From the NCBI RefSeq assembly GCF_025979705.1, contig NZ_CP110136.1, forward strand, positions 620,001-684,000: a stretch of 64,000 nt of DNA. The letters run 5' to 3'. The stretch's first letter is position 1, and the number at the start of each line of letters is the position of its first letter. The notes below the pieces were generated by a model. That model was not told the origin of the DNA. It ran no database searches and saw only the letters and a program-made list of their open reading frames with translations. This stretch comes from Hymenobacter sp. YIM 151858-1 (GTDB lineage: Bacteria > Bacteroidota > Bacteroidia > Cytophagales > Hymenobacteraceae). The position numbers were made by a program, and so were the translations under genes. Below, one piece after another: positions 1 to 37,539 of this stretch.

Positions 1-2376
1 CAGGTACTTCTCGGAGGTGCGCTGGCGCAAGGGGTGGTGCAGCGCACCTAGGGCCGAAAGCACCCACGCTTCCTTTTCGCGGTTGTGCTCGTCGCGCAGC
101 GAGGCGAAAAACGCGTCGCGGGTGGCCACGTCGGGCGAGAGGGCGGGCATCAAAAACTGCAGGCGCTTTTGGCGGTCGGGGTTTTTGATGCGGGCCAGTT
201 GCTTGGTCAGAATCTGTGGATCGGCAGCGTAGTCGCGCACGGCCAGCGCCTGCGCCAGCGAGGTGTAATCGTCTTCGGTAAGCGTAACGCCAGTAGGGGC
301 CTGCTGCTTGTCCCAAACCTGGTACAGGCGCTGCTGGGCAGCGGGTGTGAGGGCAACCGATTGGTAGCTCTTGAACAGCAGCTTGCGGATGTTGGCCGAC
401 GAGTTTTGCGACATGGTACGCCACAAGTCAGCTTCGAGCGCCGGGGCAAGTGCAGAGCGTTCTTCAGGCTTCAGCAGCTTCCAGTAGATGTCGGAAAGCT
501 GGCCGGTGAGCAGCTTCAGGTTCAGCTCTTCGATTTCGAGGGGAAGCTGTTGGCGGTACAGGTCGAGGAGCTGACGCGGGGGCAGCACCCGGCCGTTGAG
601 CATGTTCTCGTAAAGGCTGATGTAGGCCGCGGCCCGCGCCACCGGGTTCGGCAGTTTGCCTAGGTTGGGCAGCAGCTGCTTATCGATGGGGAACACCCCG
701 TAACCTAGGCCCGAGGAGTTGAACAAGACAAACGCCGGAGCTGGTTGGCCAGCCGCTTCCGCCAACTGCACCTGCCGCTCGTTCATGTTTACGGTCAGCT
801 CCTTGCTGGTGCCGTTGGGGTATACCAGCAGCACCTCGAACACCTGCGGCCACAGGCGGTCGGAGTTGTCTTCGGCGCGCTGCGTGAGTTCGAGCTGGCT
901 GATTTTGCCGCCTTGGGTTTGCAGCTTGTAATCAATGACGGGGCGGCCAGGCTGGTTTACCCACACCTGGTTCCAGGCCTGCAAATCGGCGGGCGTGCGG
1001 CGGTCGAGGATGCTGATGAGGTCGGGCCAGGTGGCGTTGCCGTGGGCGTAGGTGCGCAAGTATTCCTGCAAGCCCTGCCGGAAAGCTTCTTCGCCCATCA
1101 GCCGCTCGAGCTGCCGCATCATAATGGGCGCCTTGTGGTAGATGATGTTGCCGTAGAGCGAGCCGGCATCCTGCAGGTTGTTGAGCTCCTGCCGAATGGG
1201 GTTGGCGCCCTGGGTGCGGTCGATGCCGTACGCGGCCGGGAAGTGGTCGGTCACGAACTTGAGGTCGTAGTTGGAGCCCTCTACGGCCACCTGCGTGATT
1301 TTATCGGCCATGAAGTTGGCAAACACCTCCTTCATCCACACGTCGTTAAACCACTGCATCGTCACCAGGTCGCCAAACCACATGTGGGCGGTTTCGTGGG
1401 CGATGAGCGAGGAGCGGGCAATCTTCTGATCCTGCGTGGCGCCTTCGTCGAGGAACAGCGTGGAGGCTTTGTAGTCAATGGCGCCCACGTGCTCCATGCC
1501 GCCGTACTGAAAGTCGGGAATGGCCGCGAAATCGAACTTGCGGAAGGGGTACGGAATGCCCGTGTACGCCTCCATGAACTTCAGCGCATCGGCATGAATC
1601 TGGAAGATCGGGCCTAGGCTAAGCTGCAGTTTGCTGGGGTCGGTTTCGCGGTGCAACAGCTGCATGGTGCGCCCACCCGCCTCGCGCGACAACCGCGTGA
1701 ACTTGCCCGCCACAAACGAGAACAAGTAGGTGCTGATGGTGTCGGAAGGGGCGAAGCGGTAGGTTTTGGTACCGGCCGTGGTTGTGGAATCCTGCACCGG
1801 TCCGTTGGCCAAGGCTTGCCAACCCTGCGGCACCGTAAGCTGCAGCTGAAAGCTGGCCTTCAGGTTGGGCTGATCGAACACCGGGAACACCGTGCGGGCG
1901 CGGTCGGGCACCAGCAAGGTGTAGAGGAAATCGTCGGAGCGGTTCAGCGACAAATCACCGGCTACAAACTCAATCTGCACGGTATTCGGGCCGCGCTTGA
2001 GCGCGCTGGCCGGCAGCACCAGGTGCTCGTCGCGGTGGTCGATGGCAACCTCTTTGCCGTTCACCACCACGCGCTTGAGGTGGTCAGTTTTCTCCTTAAA
2101 GTCGAGCTGCACGGGCTGGCTGGCGTCCTTAAGGTTAAACGACACCACCTCCGACGCAACCACCGGCTCGGCTTTGCGCTCGGGTACGCTTAGCTGCAGT
2201 TGGTACCCTAGGTTGCTGATGAGCTGTTTGCGTTGCTCAGCTAGCTGCAGCGAAACGCCCTTCTCCACGGGCACAGTCGTAGCGGTGGTTGGCGCCATGT
2301 TTTTTTGGCAGGCAGTAGCAAGCAAGGCAAGCATAAACCAGCTTGCCTGTTCATATTTACTGAAACGTATGTTCAT
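1..2376 (-). CDS. M1 family metallo-aminopeptidase, lipoprotein (C-terminus cut by window edge)
   Basis: A zinc aminopeptidase that removes N-terminal residues from peptides, probably anchored at the cell envelope. The frame is open from the ATG at 2376 to base 1, so 792 residues are visible and the C-terminus is missing. The N-terminus has a signal peptide ending in a lipobox (LLATAC). The M1 substrate-binding motif appears as GGMEH near residues 292-296. The zinc site is HETAH at 327-331, with the third ligand Glu350, which fits the HExxH-x18-E rule exactly. This ATG was chosen because it gives the lipoprotein signal; the CAT near 2297 lies after the lipobox. The gene stands alone, divergent from the small gene at 2657. 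The family assignment is secure; the exact substrate is not. Confidence 0.95.
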   Translation of the reverse strand, partial: MNIRFSKYEQASWFMLALLATACQKNMAPTTATTVPVEKGVSLQLAEQRKQLISNLGYQLQLSVPERKAEPVVASEVVSFNLKDASQPVQLDFKEKTDHLKRVVVNGKEVAIDHRDEHLVLPASALKRGPNTVQIEFVAGDLSLNRSDDFLYTLLVPDRARTVFPVFDQPNLKASFQLQLTVPQGWQALANGPVQDSTTTAGTKTYRFAPSDTISTYLFSFVAGKFTRLSREAGGRTMQLLHRETDPSKLQLSLGPIFQIHADALKFMEAYTGIPYPFRKFDFAAIPDFQYGGMEHVGAIDYKASTLFLDEGATQDQKIARSSLIAHETAHMWFGDLVTMQWFNDVWMKEVFANFMADKITQVAVEGSNYDLKFVTDHFPAAYGIDRTQGANPIRQELNNLQDAGSLYGNIIYHKAPIMMRQLERLMGEEAFRQGLQEYLRTYAHGNATWPDLISILDRRTPADLQAWNQVWVNQPGRPVIDYKLQTQGGKISQLELTQRAEDNSDRLWPQVFEVLLVYPNGTSKELTVNMNERQVQLAEAAGQPAPAFVLFNSSGLGYGVFPIDKQLLPNLGKLPNPVARAAAYISLYENMLNGRVLPPRQLLDLYRQQLPLEIEELNLKLLTGQLSDIYWKLLKPEERSALAPALEADLWRTMSQNSSANIRKLLFKSYQSVALTPAAQQRLYQVWDKQQAPTGVTLTEDDYTSLAQALAVRDYAADPQILTKQLARIKNPDRQKRLQFLMPALSPDVATRDAFFASLRDEHNREKEAWVLSALGALHHPLRQRTSEKYL

Positions 2377-2656
2377 CGGGCCAGATCAGTACCTAGGGAA
2401 GTAGTAAAAGTAGAAACACTAGGTCAGTGCTGGCGCTGCAACGTTTTGATTAATGCATAAAGGTTATTGTATTGTCGACAAGAACAGTGCAACAGGAAGA
2501 GCACAAGTTTCTAAATGCGTTTTAGAGAACGATGGCGTTAGTTGGCGACTTAACAACCGGCGATATCGGCGTGGCTGTTAAATAGAGCAGAAGCAAATTC
2601 CACAGCTGATACAATAAGTAGAATTGTAAGTAGCTTATCTGCCAACGACGCAGCCA

Positions 2657-2989
2657 ATGAAGACAACGGTAGCAAATGGGAAAAATAGGAACAAACCCAA
2701 CGCTATGGGGATACTGATTTTGATAACAACAGGAATGACGATCGGCGTGATGTGTTATAACAGTTGGTCTAATACACGTTTTATTGAGGAGAATGGATTG
2801 TACACTAATGGCATCATAAAGGATGTAAGGTATTTGAAGAGCGAATACACACATCGTATTCATTTTACATATAGTGGAAAAATGTACGAGTCCAGCGGTA
2901 CATCTCAACAAAAGCATGTTCAAGGAGACACTATCCGCATTCGATTCAACCAAAACAACCCTGCGAAAGACGTAGTAATCATCGATTGA
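2657..2989 (+). CDS. Small membrane-anchored hypothetical protein (DUF3592-like)
   Basis: A 110-residue protein of unknown role. It has a basic N-terminus, one membrane segment (about residues 17-34, GILILITTGMTIGVM), then a small beta-rich domain with a pattern resembling DUF3592: a G-x-I-x-x-V strand, a short aromatic strand (HFTYSGK) and a final V-x-V-x-x-D region (RIRFNQ, KDVVIID). Its base composition is much richer in A+T than its neighbours, and codon use differs accordingly (AAT, ATA and TAT are common), which suggests recent acquisition. It starts at ATG 2657; an ATG in a better context was not seen. No operon partner is apparent. Confidence 0.65.
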   Translation: MKTTVANGKNRNKPNAMGILILITTGMTIGVMCYNSWSNTRFIEENGLYTNGIIKDVRYLKSEYTHRIHFTYSGKMYESSGTSQQKHVQGDTIRIRFNQNNPAKDVVIID

Positions 2990-3101
2990 ATTGTTTAGGG
3001 TAGCGGCTAAAGCCAGATGGAGGAGAATAGGATGAAACAAGCAGGCTGATAATACAAGCTGCGCTGGCAAGGGTAGGGAGTAACTTGCCTATGTTAGGCC
3101 A

Positions 3102-3845
3102 ATGAATGAATACACCCCACCAAAGCCGCGAATGCAACCCGCCGTGCAGCTGTACCCGCTGGGCGATGCGGCCGTGGTGGTGGAGTTCGGCAACAGCATC
3201 AGCCCGGTCACGCACGAAACCGTGCAGGCATTTTGCCAGCTGCTCGAACAACAGCCGTTCGCTGGCTTGGTGGAGTATGTGCCGGCCTTCACCACCGTAA
3301 CCGTGTATTACGACCCGTGGCTGCTCCGCCAGCAAGCTGCCACGCCCTACGACGCCGTGCTACAGCAACTCGAGCAGCTACTGCGCAGCGCCAATACCAC
3401 CGCAGCACCGCCCGCCCACCGGCTAGTTGAAATACCCGTGTGCTACGGCGGCCAGCACGGCCCCGACCTAGGCTGGCTGGCCGATTACAAGCACCTTGCG
3501 CCCGAGCAAGTGGTGGCCCTACACGCAGCCCCCGAATATCTGGTGTATATGATTGGGTTTGCGCCCGGTTTCCCGTACCTGGGCGGGCTAGATGAGCAAC
3601 TAACCGCCCCGCGTAAAGAGCAGCCGCGCCCCCTGGTGCCAGCCGGCACGGTAGGCATTGCCGGTAAGCAAACGGGCGTGTACCCGCTGGCCACGCCCGG
3701 CGGCTGGCAGCTGATTGGCCGCACGCCCTTGCGCTTGTTTCGCCCCGAAGCCGAGGTGCCCAGCCTGCTGCAAGCCGGCGACCGGGTGCGGTTCGTGCCC
3801 ATTTCCGATAGCGAGTACCAGCGCCTGCAACAGCATGAGCTTTAG
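3102..3845 (+). CDS. pxpB: 5-oxoprolinase subunit PxpB (KipI family)
   Basis: One half of the biotin-independent, ATP-dependent 5-oxoprolinase PxpABC, which opens 5-oxo-L-proline to glutamate in the cytoplasm. The 247 residues fit the allophanate-hydrolase-subunit-1/KipI family. The N-terminal part contains LGDAAVVVEFG, and the C-terminal cyclophilin-like part contains the family signatures IGFAPGFPYLGGL and AGTVGIAGKQTGVYP (about residues 150-205). It opens a four-gene operon and overlaps pxpC by 11 bases. The start is uncertain: ATG 3102 gives an N-terminal extension, and a second in-frame ATG at 3132 (MQPAVQL) would match typical family length better. Confidence 0.93.
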   Translation: MNEYTPPKPRMQPAVQLYPLGDAAVVVEFGNSISPVTHETVQAFCQLLEQQPFAGLVEYVPAFTTVTVYYDPWLLRQQAATPYDAVLQQLEQLLRSANTTAAPPAHRLVEIPVCYGGQHGPDLGWLADYKHLAPEQVVALHAAPEYLVYMIGFAPGFPYLGGLDEQLTAPRKEQPRPLVPAGTVGIAGKQTGVYPLATPGGWQLIGRTPLRLFRPEAEVPSLLQAGDRVRFVPISDSEYQRLQQHEL

Positions 3846-30898: not shown

Positions 30899-31654
30899 AT
30901 GCTTAAGCGAGATTTTCTGAAGAACGGTTTGCTGACGATTGTTGGCGCCATGGTAAGCCCCAGCCTGCTGGCCCACGCCCGCGACGAAAAGCTGCTGCGC
31001 GAAGCCCGCGCCACGCCCATTGCCGACGGCCCCTTTACGCTGCCGCCGCTGCCCTACGCCAACAATGCGCTGGAGCCGCACATCGACGCGCGTACCATGG
31101 AAATCCACCACGACGCCCACCACAAAACCTACGTGTCGAAGCTGAACGAGGCGGTGGCCGGTAAGCCGCTCGAGAAAATGTCGCTGGCGCAGCTGTTGGC
31201 CTCGGCTAGTAAGCAGCCCGATGCCGTGCGCAACAACGCCGGCGGCCACTGGAATCACTCGTTTTTTTGGCAGCTGATGGCCCAAAAGGGCGGCGGCCAA
31301 CCCACCGGCGAGCTGGCCGCGGCCATCACCAAAGATTTTGGCTCGTTCGATAAGTTCAAGGAGGAGTTTGCCAAGGCTGCCACCGGCCGCTTCGGCTCGG
31401 GTTGGGCCTGGCTCATTCATGACCCCAAGGCCAACAAGCTGGCCATTACCTCCACGCCCAACCAGGACAACCCGCTGATGGACCTACCCGGCATTCAGCG
31501 CGGTACCCCGCTCATCGGCCTCGATGTGTGGGAGCACGCCTACTATCTCAAGTACCAGAACAAGCGGCCCGACTATGTGGCCGCTTTTTGGAACGTGGTA
31601 AACTGGAGCGAAGCCGGCAAGCGCTACGACGAAGCCCGCAAAGCCAAAGGCTGA
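30899..31654 (+). CDS. Fe/Mn superoxide dismutase with N-terminal export signal
   Basis: Converts superoxide to oxygen and peroxide. The 251 residues comprise a 26-residue signal and a full Fe/Mn-SOD. Metal ligands are His70 (MEIHHDAHH), His120 (HWNHSFFW), Asp209 and His213 (DVWEHAYY). The signal ([20 protein letters not shown]) contains KRDFLK, close to the twin-arginine motif with one Lys, followed by a mildly hydrophobic stretch and a cut at LLAHA. It is thus probably periplasmic and perhaps Tat-dependent. It is monocistronic with its own terminator. Confidence 0.95.
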
Positions 31655-31764: not shown

Positions 31765-32035
31765 GCCGTCATGTCGAGCGCAGTCGAGGCATCTCGCGTG
31801 CTGGCGTTGGATAGCGACTGTCATCCTGAGCAAAGCGAAGGACCTCACCCCCAGCCCCTCTCCAGAAGAGAGGGGAGCAGATGCTATCTGGTGTCAGCAC
31901 CCAGATGTCTCGGCTGCGCTCGACATGACAGCTGGGCCCTAGGTCGCCGTGGCTCCCCCTCTCTTTTGGAGAGGGGGCAGGGGGGGGAGGTCCCGATAAA
32001 GGCCTTCCTGCATCCGGATGATATGTGCCGGACCT
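31765..32035. repeat. Mosaic intergenic palindromic repeats
   Basis: Contains the GTCATGTCGAGC / GAGGCATCTCGCGTGCTGGC module, the TCATCCTGAGC / GAAGGACCT module, a CCCTCTCC-to-GAGAGGGG module, and inverted copies of the first two further right. Two CCTAGG sites lie at its right end. It separates the superoxide dismutase gene from the asnA leader and contains no gene. Confidence 0.85.
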
Positions 32036-32112
32036 AGGGGAGCAGCAATGCAAAGCAGGGTTAATTACAACCACTAATTATTGCGCTTGAAAAAAATATT
32101 GATGTCGATATG

Positions 32113-32141
32113 TTGCATTGCTACCCAAGCTTTATAATTTG
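32113..32141 (+). promoter_or_regulatory. Probable promoter of the asnA leader transcript
   Basis: TTG at 32113-32115, then 17 bases, then TATAATTTG at 32133-32141, close to the Bacteroidota TTTG / TAnnTTTG type and containing a full TATAAT. The A+T-rich surroundings stand out against the GC-rich window. The transcript would start near 32147, about 25 bases before the leader ATG. Confidence 0.6.
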
Positions 32142-32171
32142 GCCAAACAAAACGCCCTAAAAGCGCCAATC

Positions 32172-32246
32172 ATGCTTCAGTTCGCCAACAGCCTCAATAA
32201 TCAGAATCGGAATAATAATTCCGACGCTGGAAGGCTATTGGTCTGA
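32172..32246 (+). CDS. asnA leader peptide, 7 Asn in 24 codons
   Basis: A short ORF of 24 codons plus TGA reading MLQFANSLNNQNRNNN, then SDAGRLLV. Asn occupies positions 6, 9, 10, 12, 14, 15 and 16. Its position, directly upstream of a strong intrinsic terminator and of asparagine synthetase, identifies it as the sensing element of a transcription attenuator: the ribosome would pause at the Asn codons when charged Asn-tRNA is scarce. The last codons (GGA AGG CTA TTG) are themselves part of the antiterminator stem. It is too short for routine gene finding. Confidence 0.88.
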   Translation: MLQFANSLNNQNRNNNSDAGRLLV

Positions 32247-32309
32247 TGTACAGACGTAAAATCAGTAACTGATTTCAATAAGCCTTCCGAATTCGGGAGG
32301 CTTTTTTTT
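32185..32309 (+). promoter_or_regulatory. Ribosome-dependent attenuator of asnA (segments 1-4)
   Basis: Four mutually exclusive segments are visible. Segment 1 (32185-32194, CCAACAGCCT) pairs with segment 2 (32232-32241, AGGCTATTGG) with one mismatch. Segment 2, extended to 32229-32240 (GGAAGGCTATTG), pairs with segment 3 (32276-32288, CAATAAGCCTTCC) with a single bulge. Segment 3 pairs with segment 4 (32294-32303) as the terminator. A ribosome stalled on Asn codons 9-16 (32196-32219) would cover segment 1 and leave segment 2 free to trap segment 3, allowing read-through. A ribosome reaching the TGA at 32246 would cover segment 2 and let the terminator form. Two small hairpins (32241-32255, GTCTG/CAGAC; about 32258-32275) fit in the 2:3 loop. 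Confidence 0.85.
32280..32309 (+). terminator. Attenuator terminator upstream of asnA
   Basis: A 10-bp stem (32280-32289 with 32294-32303, one G-T wobble), an AATT loop, and a run of eight T (32302-32309). It is a canonical intrinsic terminator placed 34 bases after the leader stop and 137 bases before the asnA ATG, where it would abort transcription unless the antiterminator forms. Confidence 0.92.
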
Positions 32310-32341
32310 CGCCCATACGCGGCCAATAATGGGTTTTCGGC

Positions 32342-32368
32342 ACCGAAAAAACATCGTGTTTTTTCGGT
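32342..32368 (+). promoter_or_regulatory. Second hairpin in the asnA untranslated leader
   Basis: A perfect 12-bp inverted repeat (ACCGAAAAAACA with its complement) closed by a TCG loop. It follows the attenuator terminator and precedes asnA by 78 bases. It has no terminal T-run beyond those inside the stem. It may stabilise the 5' end of the read-through transcript or act as a second checkpoint. Confidence 0.5.
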
Positions 32369-32445
32369 CCGGCGAAGCCTTGCCTGAACATTTCTAATTG
32401 CCGAATCCAAACACAATTCTTTAATCCAAAAACCACACATTTCGC

Positions 32446-33483
32446 ATGGAAGCAACACTAGCCCCCGCCAAAGCCCAAAGCCCCGCCGGGCTGCTCAAAA
32501 CCGAAGAATCCATTGGGTTCGTGAAGGACACGTTTGCCCGCGAGCTGGCCCGGCAACTGCAGCTTACCAAGGTGTCGTCGCCGATAGCAGTGCTCGACGG
32601 CACCGGCATCAACGACGACCTGAACGGCGTGGAGCGCCCGGTGTCGTTTCCGGTTAAAGCCCTGGCCGAGCGCCGCGCCGTGGTGGTGCACTCCCTGGCC
32701 AAATGGAAGCGCCTGCGCCTCACGGAGCTGGGCATACCGGTGGGCCGCGGCATCCTGACGGATATGCGCGCCCTGCGCCCCGACGAGGATTACTCGCCCA
32801 TTCACTCGATCTACGTCGATCAGTGGGATTGGGAAAAGCACATTTTGCCCGAGCAGCGCACCGTGGCTTTTCTGAAGGAAACCGTGGAGAAAATTTACGA
32901 CGCGCTGCGCACCACCGAGCTGCGCGTGGCCGAAGAGTACGCCGACGTGGTGCCCGTGCTGCCCGAGCAAATCACGTTTATCCATGCCGAGGAGCTGCTG
33001 CAGCGCTACCCCACGCTCACGGTAAAGGAGCGCGAAACCGCCGCGGCCCGCGAGTACGGCGCGGTGTTTATCGTGGGTATTGGCGGCGAGCTAAGCCACG
33101 GCGAAAGCCACGACGGCCGCGCCCCCGATTACGACGACTGGAGCACCGAAACCGCTCCCGGCCGGCGCGGCCTGAACGGCGACATCGTGCTGTGGCACCC
33201 GGTGCTGCAATCGGCGTTTGAGGTATCGTCGATGGGTATTCGGGTGGATAAGGCGGCTTTGCTGCGCCAGCTGGCGCTGCGCGGCTGTCCCGAGCGCGCG
33301 GCCCTAGGTTTCCATAGCCTGTTGCTGGCCGGGCAGCTGACGGAAAGCATCGGCGGCGGAATTGGGCAATCGAGGGTGTGCATGTTTATGTTGCGCAAGG
33401 CGCACATCGGCGAGGTGCAGGTAAGCATCTGGCCCGAAGCCGTGCGGCAGGAGCTAAGCAGCGCGGGCGTGGCACTGCTGTAG
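32446..33483 (+). CDS. asnA: Aspartate-ammonia ligase (AsnA-type asparagine synthetase)
   Basis: Makes asparagine from aspartate, ammonia and ATP in the cytoplasm. The 345 residues match the AsnA family, a class II aminoacyl-tRNA-synthetase-like fold, usual length 330-345. Signatures are SPIAVLDGTGINDDLNGVERPVSF (read as LDGTGINDDLNG followed by ERPVSF), HSLAKWKRLRL, HSIYVDQWDWE, and near the end IGGGIGQSR and KAHIGEVQVSIWP. The ATG at 32446 is the only suitable start. Expression is evidently governed by the Asn-codon attenuator just upstream, which fits its product exactly. A hairpin at 33509-33548 closes the unit. Confidence 0.97.
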   Translation: MEATLAPAKAQSPAGLLKTEESIGFVKDTFARELARQLQLTKVSSPIAVLDGTGINDDLNGVERPVSFPVKALAERRAVVVHSLAKWKRLRLTELGIPVGRGILTDMRALRPDEDYSPIHSIYVDQWDWEKHILPEQRTVAFLKETVEKIYDALRTTELRVAEEYADVVPVLPEQITFIHAEELLQRYPTLTVKERETAAAREYGAVFIVGIGGELSHGESHDGRAPDYDDWSTETAPGRRGLNGDIVLWHPVLQSAFEVSSMGIRVDKAALLRQLALRGCPERAALGFHSLLLAGQLTESIGGGIGQSRVCMFMLRKAHIGEVQVSIWPEAVRQELSSAGVALL

Positions 33484-34524: not shown

Positions 34525-34816
34525 TACATTGTCATCCTGAGCCCAAGCGAAGGACCTCCTCACGTCAGGACCTCACGGGACCCCTTCGGGGCCCGGCCCC
34601 CTCTCCAAAAGAGAGGGGGAGCCTGACGACCTAGGGCTCGGCTGTCATGTCGAGTAAAGCGAGACATCTGGCGCGCCTACTCTTGTTAGTATTCACTCCC
34701 CCTCTCCCTTTGGAGAGGGGGCCGGGGGGTGAGGTACCGGTAAGGTCCTTCCTGCGTCAGGACGATAATTACCGCCCACCCAGATGTCTCGCTTGGCTCG
34801 ACATGACAGCTGAGCC
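34525..34816. repeat. Mosaic intergenic palindromic repeats
   Basis: The gap between the DUF2383 gene and the convergent monooxygenase gene is filled by the family modules: TCATCCTGAGC with GAAGGACCTCC, CCCCTCTCC-to-GAGAGGGGG in both orientations, and TCATGTCGAG with GAGACATCTGG and an inverted partner near 34780-34807. The ends face each other and would form a long imperfect hairpin. Confidence 0.85.
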
Positions 34817-35842
34817 CTAGGCCAGTACCTGAATAACAGCTTCCGAGAAACGCTCCATTTCCTCAAGCTGCGGGCTGCACTGCAGCAGGAACAGGTCAAC
34901 GCCCACGGCCTCGAACTGCGCCACGCGTTCGGCAATCTGATCGGGCGTGCCGGTGAGGCCCGAGCGCAGGCCGCGGTTCGACACGGAGTAGTCCTGCAGC
35001 GACACCTGCTTTTCGAGCTGCGTGCCGGCCAGCCACTGCTGGTAGTTTTTGTAGCCGGCGGCCGAGCCGTTTACGTTCGTGATGCGCTCCAGCTCGCGCT
35101 TCACCTCCTGCTCGGTGTTGCGCACAATGCTGTACGCCGCCACGCCAAACTTCATCGGGGGCAGGCCTAGCCGGTCGCGGCGCTCCTGCAAATCCCGAAT
35201 GCGGCGGCCGATGGCCGCGGGCTCGTCGCCGTGCATCACGTAGCCGTCGCACTGGGCGGCAATCAGGTTCTTGGCCGCTTCCGATTCGCCGCCGGCGTAC
35301 AGGAACGGCCGCGGGCGCGACACCGGCTTGGGCTGCAGAATGCTGTCCGTCACCTCGTAGTACTTGCCCTTGAAGCTGAAGTGGTCTTGCTTCCAGAGGT
35401 TGTCTACCACGTGCAGCCACTCGGCGGTGCGGGCGTACCGGTCGTCGTGCTGCTCAAAGTGCACGCCGTACTTCTTGGCCTCGTCCTGCCACCACGACGA
35501 CACCACGTTCAGCGACAACCGCCCGCCGCTGATGTGGTCGATGTTGGCGGCTTGCTTGGCCAGCAGCGCCGGCGAGTGGAAGGTAGGCCGCACGGCCACC
35601 ATCAGCTCGAGCTTTTTGGTAACGGCCGCCAGCGCGGCCGCCGTGCTCCAGGCATCGAGCGAAGGGGCTTCTTCGCCTTTGATGTCGTTCAGGTTCAGCT
35701 CGGCGATAAGCGACAGGTCGTAACCGAGCTCCTCCGAGCGTTGGGCCAGCGTTTTCACGTAGTCCCAGTCGGCGCGCATGTTTTCATCCTCAACATTGCG
35801 CAGCCACCCGCCAAAAACGGGCATCCAATATCCGTAACGCAT
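34817..35842 (-). CDS. LLM-class flavin-dependent monooxygenase (SsuD/SfnG-like)
   Basis: A reduced-flavin-dependent oxidoreductase of 341 residues, bacterial-luciferase fold. Family signatures are WMPVFGGWLRN at the start, AELNLNDIKG, LMVAVRPTFHSPALLAKQAA, ISGGRLSLNVVSSWW, and GESEAAKNLIAAQCDGYVMHGD. The pattern is closest to alkanesulfonate and dimethylsulfone monooxygenases, which release sulfur from organosulfur compounds. It follows the ATP-grasp gene on the same strand, and both lie downstream of a SAM riboswitch, which supports a sulfur-scavenging role. The stop codon is part of a CCTAGG. Confidence 0.9.
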   Translation of the reverse strand: MRYGYWMPVFGGWLRNVEDENMRADWDYVKTLAQRSEELGYDLSLIAELNLNDIKGEEAPSLDAWSTAAALAAVTKKLELMVAVRPTFHSPALLAKQAANIDHISGGRLSLNVVSSWWQDEAKKYGVHFEQHDDRYARTAEWLHVVDNLWKQDHFSFKGKYYEVTDSILQPKPVSRPRPFLYAGGESEAAKNLIAAQCDGYVMHGDEPAAIGRRIRDLQERRDRLGLPPMKFGVAAYSIVRNTEQEVKRELERITNVNGSAAGYKNYQQWLAGTQLEKQVSLQDYSVSNRGLRSGLTGTPDQIAERVAQFEAVGVDLFLLQCSPQLEEMERFSEAVIQVLA

Positions 35843-37434: not shown

Positions 37435-37539
37435 TTGTTTTTATATGGTCAGGACTTGGCACCGTTCCCGGGAGTTACCCCGCTGGTGGTTGCCGGCGCT
37501 TCAGGGAGCCTGTCTCTCCACGCCTCTGTATAAAAACAA
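37435..37539 (-). promoter_or_regulatory. SAM-I (S-box) riboswitch aptamer
   Basis: On the minus strand the conserved S-box words appear in order: AGAGGCGTGGAGAGAC, CTCCCTGAAGCGCCGGCAACC and CGGTGCCAAGTCC. The closing P1 helix is 11 perfect base pairs between 37539-37529 and 37445-37435 (TTGTTTTTATA with its complement). It senses S-adenosylmethionine. Immediately after P1 there is no terminator; instead the Cys/Met leader ORF begins. Downstream genes are an ATP-grasp ligase and a flavin monooxygenase. Confidence 0.93.

Follow-up and report, generated by a model that had tools for sequence, protein, structure and literature searches.

The asnA gene of Hymenobacter sp. YIM 151858-1 is very probably preceded by a ribosome-dependent transcription attenuator that senses charged Asn-tRNA, as judged from its leader sequence, the leaders of its relatives and a folding simulation. 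The first-pass annotation of the window, by which we mean the whole stretch of 64,000 nucleotides that was analysed, had proposed this reading, and it is supported by conserved Asn codons, kept pairings and the occurrence of Asn leaders in a few other Bacteroidota. The most likely consequence would be induction of asnA on asparagine shortage. The mechanism is known and its use in Bacteroidota has been suspected; as far as we searched, the asparagine and asnA case is new, and it would extend leader-peptide attenuation to this amino acid and this gene in Bacteroidota. The coordinates of the features are collected in Table 1.

Table 1. Elements of the asnA leader region in the window, and leader loci that lack asnA in related genomes
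Feature	Position	Strand	Remarks
Putative promoter	32112-32141	+	GTTG at 32112-32115 plus -7-like TATAATTTG at 32133-32141
Leader ORF	32172-32246	+	encodes MLQFANSLNNQNRNNNSDAGRLLV, 24 codons
Segment 1	32185-32194	+	partner 32232-32241
Inner hairpin inside the 1:2 arm	32207-32224	+	holds Asn codons 14-16
Segment 2	32229-32241	+	final leader codons; partner is segment 1 or segment 3
Segment 3	32276-32289	+	partner is segment 2 (antiterminator) or segment 4 (terminator)
Intrinsic terminator	32280-32309	+	hairpin 32280-32303, segment 4 32294-32303, T run 32302-32309
asnA, aspartate--ammonia ligase, 345 aa	32446-33483	+	PF03590; TIGR00669
Leader loci without asnA	L215, L216, L217, L218, L219; e.g. 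L218 1795-2130	+	covariance match, then sequence read

The product of asnA scored 409.5 bits against the NCBIfam equivalog TIGR00669 (cut-off, 292.8). Read from the window sequence, the leader ORF starts with the ATG at 32172 and stops with the TGA at 32244-32246, and Asn makes up 7 of its 24 residues (codons 6, 9, 10, 12, 14, 15 and 16), exactly as had been described in the first-pass annotation. Among the 351 short ORFs of the window (ATG-started, 12-45 codons, both strands), this ORF ranked first in Asn. The intergenic DNA is AT-rich, and when 32050-32445 was dinucleotide-shuffled 5000 times, 25 of the shuffles also held an ORF with at least seven Asn. This result speaks for a rival view in which the hairpin serves as an ordinary terminator or constitutive down-tuner and the AT-rich intergenic DNA gave rise to the Asn-rich ORF incidentally. 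The Asn composition by itself is thus only moderate evidence, and conservation, not composition, is decisive. The promoter-like box that had been noted upstream of the leader is a plausible, indeed probable, Bacteroidota-type -7 box accompanied by GTTG, called with the Bacteroidota -7 consensus. The top-scoring -7-like box ended 26-31 nt 5' of the leader ATG in 43 of 59 aligned leaders, and a score of 8-9 of 10 was reached in 49 of the 59 real upstream regions versus 14 of 59 single-base-shuffled ones.

We then considered conservation within the family, in which 200 genomes were searched for asnA, the window's genus being g1. The gene was present in 67 of them (g1, 8; g5, 50; g4, 6; g3, 3), and a covariance model found the leader in all 58 asnA-bearing genomes of g1 and g5. 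At E < 1e-15 there were matches in 63 genomes: the 58 just mentioned plus five that lack asnA. A search of 120 g5 genomes, 4 of which were outside the asnA search, returned the same 55 leader-bearing ones. At none of the nine asnA copies in g3 and g4 (L082-L090) did the scanner detect a leader of this kind. Judged by identical upstream DNA, Solirubrum puertoriconensis and Hymenobacter sp. CRA2 go with g1, and H. pini and H. frigidus with g5. The alignment comprised 59 distinct leaders, the 58 from g1 and g5 plus that of H. gummosus (L004). Every one of the 59 contains an Asn-rich in-frame ORF with 5-11 Asn, and together they hold 461 Asn (26.4% of residues). Conservation of the Asn codons and of the alternative pairings in relatives had been suggested as a check on the attenuator, and this check did not refute it: the Asn-rich ORF is there in all 59 leaders with AAT or AAC retained, and the pairings are kept as well, with compensatory changes mainly in 1:2. 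The ubiquity of the Asn-rich ORF, the retention of segment 2 across reading frames and the recurrence of Asn leaders before asnA in other lineages all argue against an ordinary terminator or down-tuner, as does the position of the nearest upstream gene, which ends at 31654, more than 600 bases before the terminator. We regard that explanation as very unlikely.

The attenuator reading is further strengthened by the codons themselves. Counted from the start codon to the end of the Asn core, the in-frame AAN codons of the 59 leaders were AAT (342), AAC (94) and AAA (1), so that AAT or AAC accounted for 436 of 437, and the other two frames held 12 AAN altogether. The search expression itself imposed two AAT or AAC codons per row; with these subtracted, the counts were 233, 85 and 1. 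These data indicate that Asn itself is under selection in the leader core. Segment 2 was conserved in a different manner. Its sequence GGAAGGC, in this form or slightly altered, persists although 48 leaders read it in frame 1 and 11 in frame 0, and its reading frame switched at least five times on the AsnA tree. Since the sequence stays constant despite these switches, it is the RNA, not the peptide, that is kept there. The comparative data therefore separate selection on codons, in the Asn stretch, from selection on RNA, in segment 2. Leader peptides that act in trans exist, peTrpL of Sinorhizobium being one example (PMC7298713), and the asnA leader peptide might likewise work mainly as a small protein, or its translation might be coupled to that of asnA. 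We consider this highly improbable, since the C-terminal part of the peptide is variable and read in two frames, and since the leader stop codon lies 199 nt 5' of asnA with the terminator in between.

The three pairings on which the attenuator would depend were all found in the window. The 1:2 protector proposed in the first-pass annotation is present with a single mismatch (C32189/A32237). The 2:3 antiterminator joins 32229-32240 to 32276-32288 by 12 pairs with one A bulged, again where it had been placed. The 3:4 terminator hairpin, which had been reported with eight T, has 10 pairs including one G-U, and the first two T of the run double as the final two bases of the stem. The leader RNA (32147-32313) folded with a minimum free energy (MFE) of -52 kcal/mol, versus -32.3 +/- 3.5 kcal/mol in 200 dinucleotide shuffles (z = -5.6), none of which was as good. 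The MFE structure consists of an extended 1:2 arm, a spacer hairpin, the 3:4 hairpin and a small 5' hairpin.

Across the 59 leaders, the 1:2, inner, spacer and 3:4 hairpins taken jointly had 83.4% of their cells paired and 57 double-change cells, versus 25.3 +/- 4.1 after shuffling and 5-19 with partners slid, although kinship among the leaders inflates such counts. Further pair types numbered 33 versus 32.2 in shuffles, that is, without excess. The best compensations were in 1:2 (GC/AU/CG at columns 46/115 and UA/CG at 56/111), and some pairs of the window are scarce in relatives, for example those at columns 58/109 (13 of 59) and 76/96 (9 of 59). In the terminator stem, 94.2% of cells were paired; in the inner hairpin the proportion was about two-thirds to three-quarters, partly an effect of the alignment. 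Eight core pairs of 2:3 were present in 55-59 of the 59 rows and hardly varied, and the lower three counted pairs were present in 14, 24 and 17 rows. Covariation in 2:3 and 3:4 was slight because both use one nearly invariant core.

The strong structure of the leader would also suit a T-box or a metabolite riboswitch that reads uncharged tRNA-Asn or asparagine directly, the ORF being incidental, and in Firmicutes amino-acid genes are commonly under T-box control. Such a T-box, like the leader proposed here, senses tRNA charging via a terminator and an antiterminator, but it needs no translation. When the whole window was scanned with Rfam 15 at gathering score, the T-box covariance model gave no match, the asnA leader matched no family, and the sole match was a SAM riboswitch elsewhere. 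Moreover, the structure lies mostly within an ORF whose AAN codons are almost exclusively AAT and AAC. Direct sensing of this kind is therefore extremely unlikely.

Under attenuation by a translating ribosome, transcription would start at about 32147 and the leader would be translated. With ample Asn-tRNA, the ribosome would reach the stop codon at 32244 and cover segment 2, whereupon 3:4 would pair and transcription would end at the T run. With scarce Asn-tRNA, it would presumably stall at the Asn codons and open the 1:2 arm, so that 2:3 could form, no terminator would arise and asnA would be transcribed. If the leader were not translated, 1:2 would form, followed by the terminator. We simulated these states by masking the RNA, with the ribosome edge assumed to lie 14 nt beyond the A site. 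A stall at Asn codon 6, 9, 10, 12, 14 or 15 gave the full 2:3 pairing before segment 4 existed, and a stall at Asn codon 16 gave a 2:3 pairing shorter by two pairs. When the ribosome was placed at the stop codon, the 3:4 terminator formed. Folded from 32225, the RNA reached -28.6 kcal/mol with the terminator versus -26.0 kcal/mol with 2:3 enforced, a cost of 2.6 kcal/mol. Because the terminator fold is thermodynamically favoured, antitermination would have to be kinetic, with 2:3 forming first, as it does in classic attenuators. In the window, 33 nt separate the stop codon from segment 3, a spacing that would let a terminating ribosome cover segment 2 and leave segment 3 free. In 13 of the 59 leaders, fewer than 13 nt lie between the two, and in one of them (L163) the frame continues through the terminator; a terminating ribosome would occupy segment 3 in such leaders, which counts against the simple model.

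Upstream regions of asnA in other Bacteroidota were also scanned. There were 164 distinct regions, of which 163 were scanned (L013 had too little upstream DNA), 59 in the window's clade and 104 outside it. Asn leaders were accepted in 5 of the 104 outside regions, namely L009, L036 (Myroides), L133, L134 and, weakly, L007. The family of L134 was searched in 46 genomes, 5 of them with asnA; L171 and L172 came from this search and carry an Asn leader, and none was found at the other two loci, L173 and L174. In the family of L007, asnA occurred in 12 of 121 genomes, and the Asn leader was present only in the genome of L007 itself. Altogether, these two family searches yielded 16 loci, two of them already in the set, with Asn leaders in L171, L172 and L136, the last being the same region as L007; no Asn leader was found at 12 of the 16. 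At L183, an ORF of 42 residues with 5 Asn was dropped, as it resembles the end of the upstream gene. Seven other ORFs flagged by the scanner, which asked for at least three Asn before a terminator, were dropped by eye (L056, L041, L128, L049, L113, L058 and L124), because their Asn are sparse (3-5 in 33-67 residues) and they mostly lie far upstream.

The accepted leaders outside the clade differ in sequence from the Hymenobacter one. Four regions (L009, L134, L171 and L172) have two Asn leader-terminator units in tandem before asnA. Among the 11 units outside the clade, no more than 5% of single-base shuffles equalled the 2:3 duplex in 7 units and the 1:2 pairing in 5; neither pairing stood out in the second unit of L009 or of L134. 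On the AsnA tree (FastTree, 178 rows), on which placements are approximate, the leader label changed at least four times by gain or loss, and L009 grouped with Hymenobacter. That dissimilar Asn leaders, some of them in tandem, occur across lineages suggests that this control arose or moved repeatedly. Tandem attenuators with two short ORFs in one leader have been described for mgtCBR of Salmonella (PMC3641672). The four tandem regions resemble that leader in having two short ORFs, and differ from it in that each of the two units is an Asn leader and has a terminator to itself.

The five g5 genomes that have the leader without an AsnA match (G043, G067, G151, G161 and G189; E from 3e-24 to 3e-20) were read in sequence as loci L215-L219. 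Upstream of the leader is a gene resembling the DUF3799 gene of the window, and downstream is a convergent gene taken, from its sequence, for an amine oxidase gene. The same neighbourhood surrounds asnA in relatives, among them L005, L095 and L102; thus, asnA is missing in place. All five leaders retain 6-8 Asn, with no AAR within the first 16 codons. The leader is followed by a linker and then by a block of about 100 nt that contains two hairpins; the second is a terminator and resembles the one just 3' of asnA in other g5 genomes. In pairwise comparisons of the five loci, the leader was 76-93% identical and the block 64-99%; in 9 of 10 pairs identity was 27-53% in the linker (L215/L217, 85%) and 6-38% downstream of the block (L218/L219, 74%). 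No ATG-started ORF of at least 15 codons is common to the block of all five loci, and none of the loci has an Rfam match at gathering score.

We tentatively suggest that the block, bounded by the former asnA terminator, is a small RNA that would be produced when asparagine (tRNA-Asn) runs out, perhaps already functional at the 3' end of the asnA mRNA in relatives. The conservation of leader and block beside a mostly diverged linker, in an unchanged gene neighbourhood, speaks for it; the chance of this appears rather low, yet we prefer an Asn-controlled small RNA as the reading of these loci. If it is true, the genomes without asnA would hold an attenuator that has outlived its gene and now runs a small RNA. 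Slow decay is a possible alternative. L218 and L219 have each lost two core Asn codons, and the consensus fold of the block showed no covariation gain (term +1.08; double changes in 3 of 37 pairs). Among 120 g5 genomes, 48 carry the core motif of the terminator, at 56 sites in total; by our count 26 of these were at asnA or the five loci and 30 elsewhere, and its presence elsewhere slightly weakens the small-RNA reading.

Leader-peptide attenuators of the trp, his, thr, leu, ilv and phe genes are known from Proteobacteria. The asnA leader shares with them a leader ORF rich in codons for the end product, four segments with 1:2, 2:3 and 3:4 pairings, and a biosynthetic gene downstream, and differs from them in the amino acid and gene, in the phylum and in the hairpin that places the last Asn codons inside the 1:2 arm. 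Closer in phylogeny, 'strong clues' for leader-peptide attenuation at amino-acid biosynthesis operons have been reported in Flavobacterium psychrophilum, where the conserved 5' elements include those of pheA and hisG (PMC9723704). Phylum, inferred mechanism and type of operon are the same as here, whereas asnA is not named in the relevant description of those elements (PMC9723704). According to a 2010 study, the only leader-peptide systems known at that time outside Proteobacteria and Actinobacteria were the atypical ermC leader and the Firmicutes case of the study itself (PMC2965389), and a map of Bacteroides thetaiotaomicron mentions leader-like short ORFs (PMC7366714). Among the papers listed by the literature searches, in which subscription journals were thinly covered, we recognised no description of an Asn leader attenuator of asnA.

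The covariance model and the leader set could serve as a seed for an Rfam-type family. Of the weak matches to the RNA model, the top eight had E values from 5.9e-5 to 4.0e-4, and seven of these were inspected (L220-L226). Six were unrelated terminators by appearance. In the seventh (L225, reverse strand), from another genome of the family, the leader MNRTQIIHIITNTIIRKMHGEGDYLV and a terminator lie directly 5' of an ORF at 892-3345, which by eye we named a thrA-like aspartokinase/homoserine dehydrogenase; this is probably a Thr/Ile attenuator. A search of the window's own genome, aimed at a thr leader there, gave partial matches only, with 29-34% identity.

Two other elements of the window were observed. 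Intergenic repeat copies with inverted arms lie at 31765-32030 and 34592-34821 and are common to the two intergenic regions flanking asnA and a DUF2383 gene. The SAM riboswitch (RF00162) is located at 37438-37536 on the minus strand and scored 65.3 bits.
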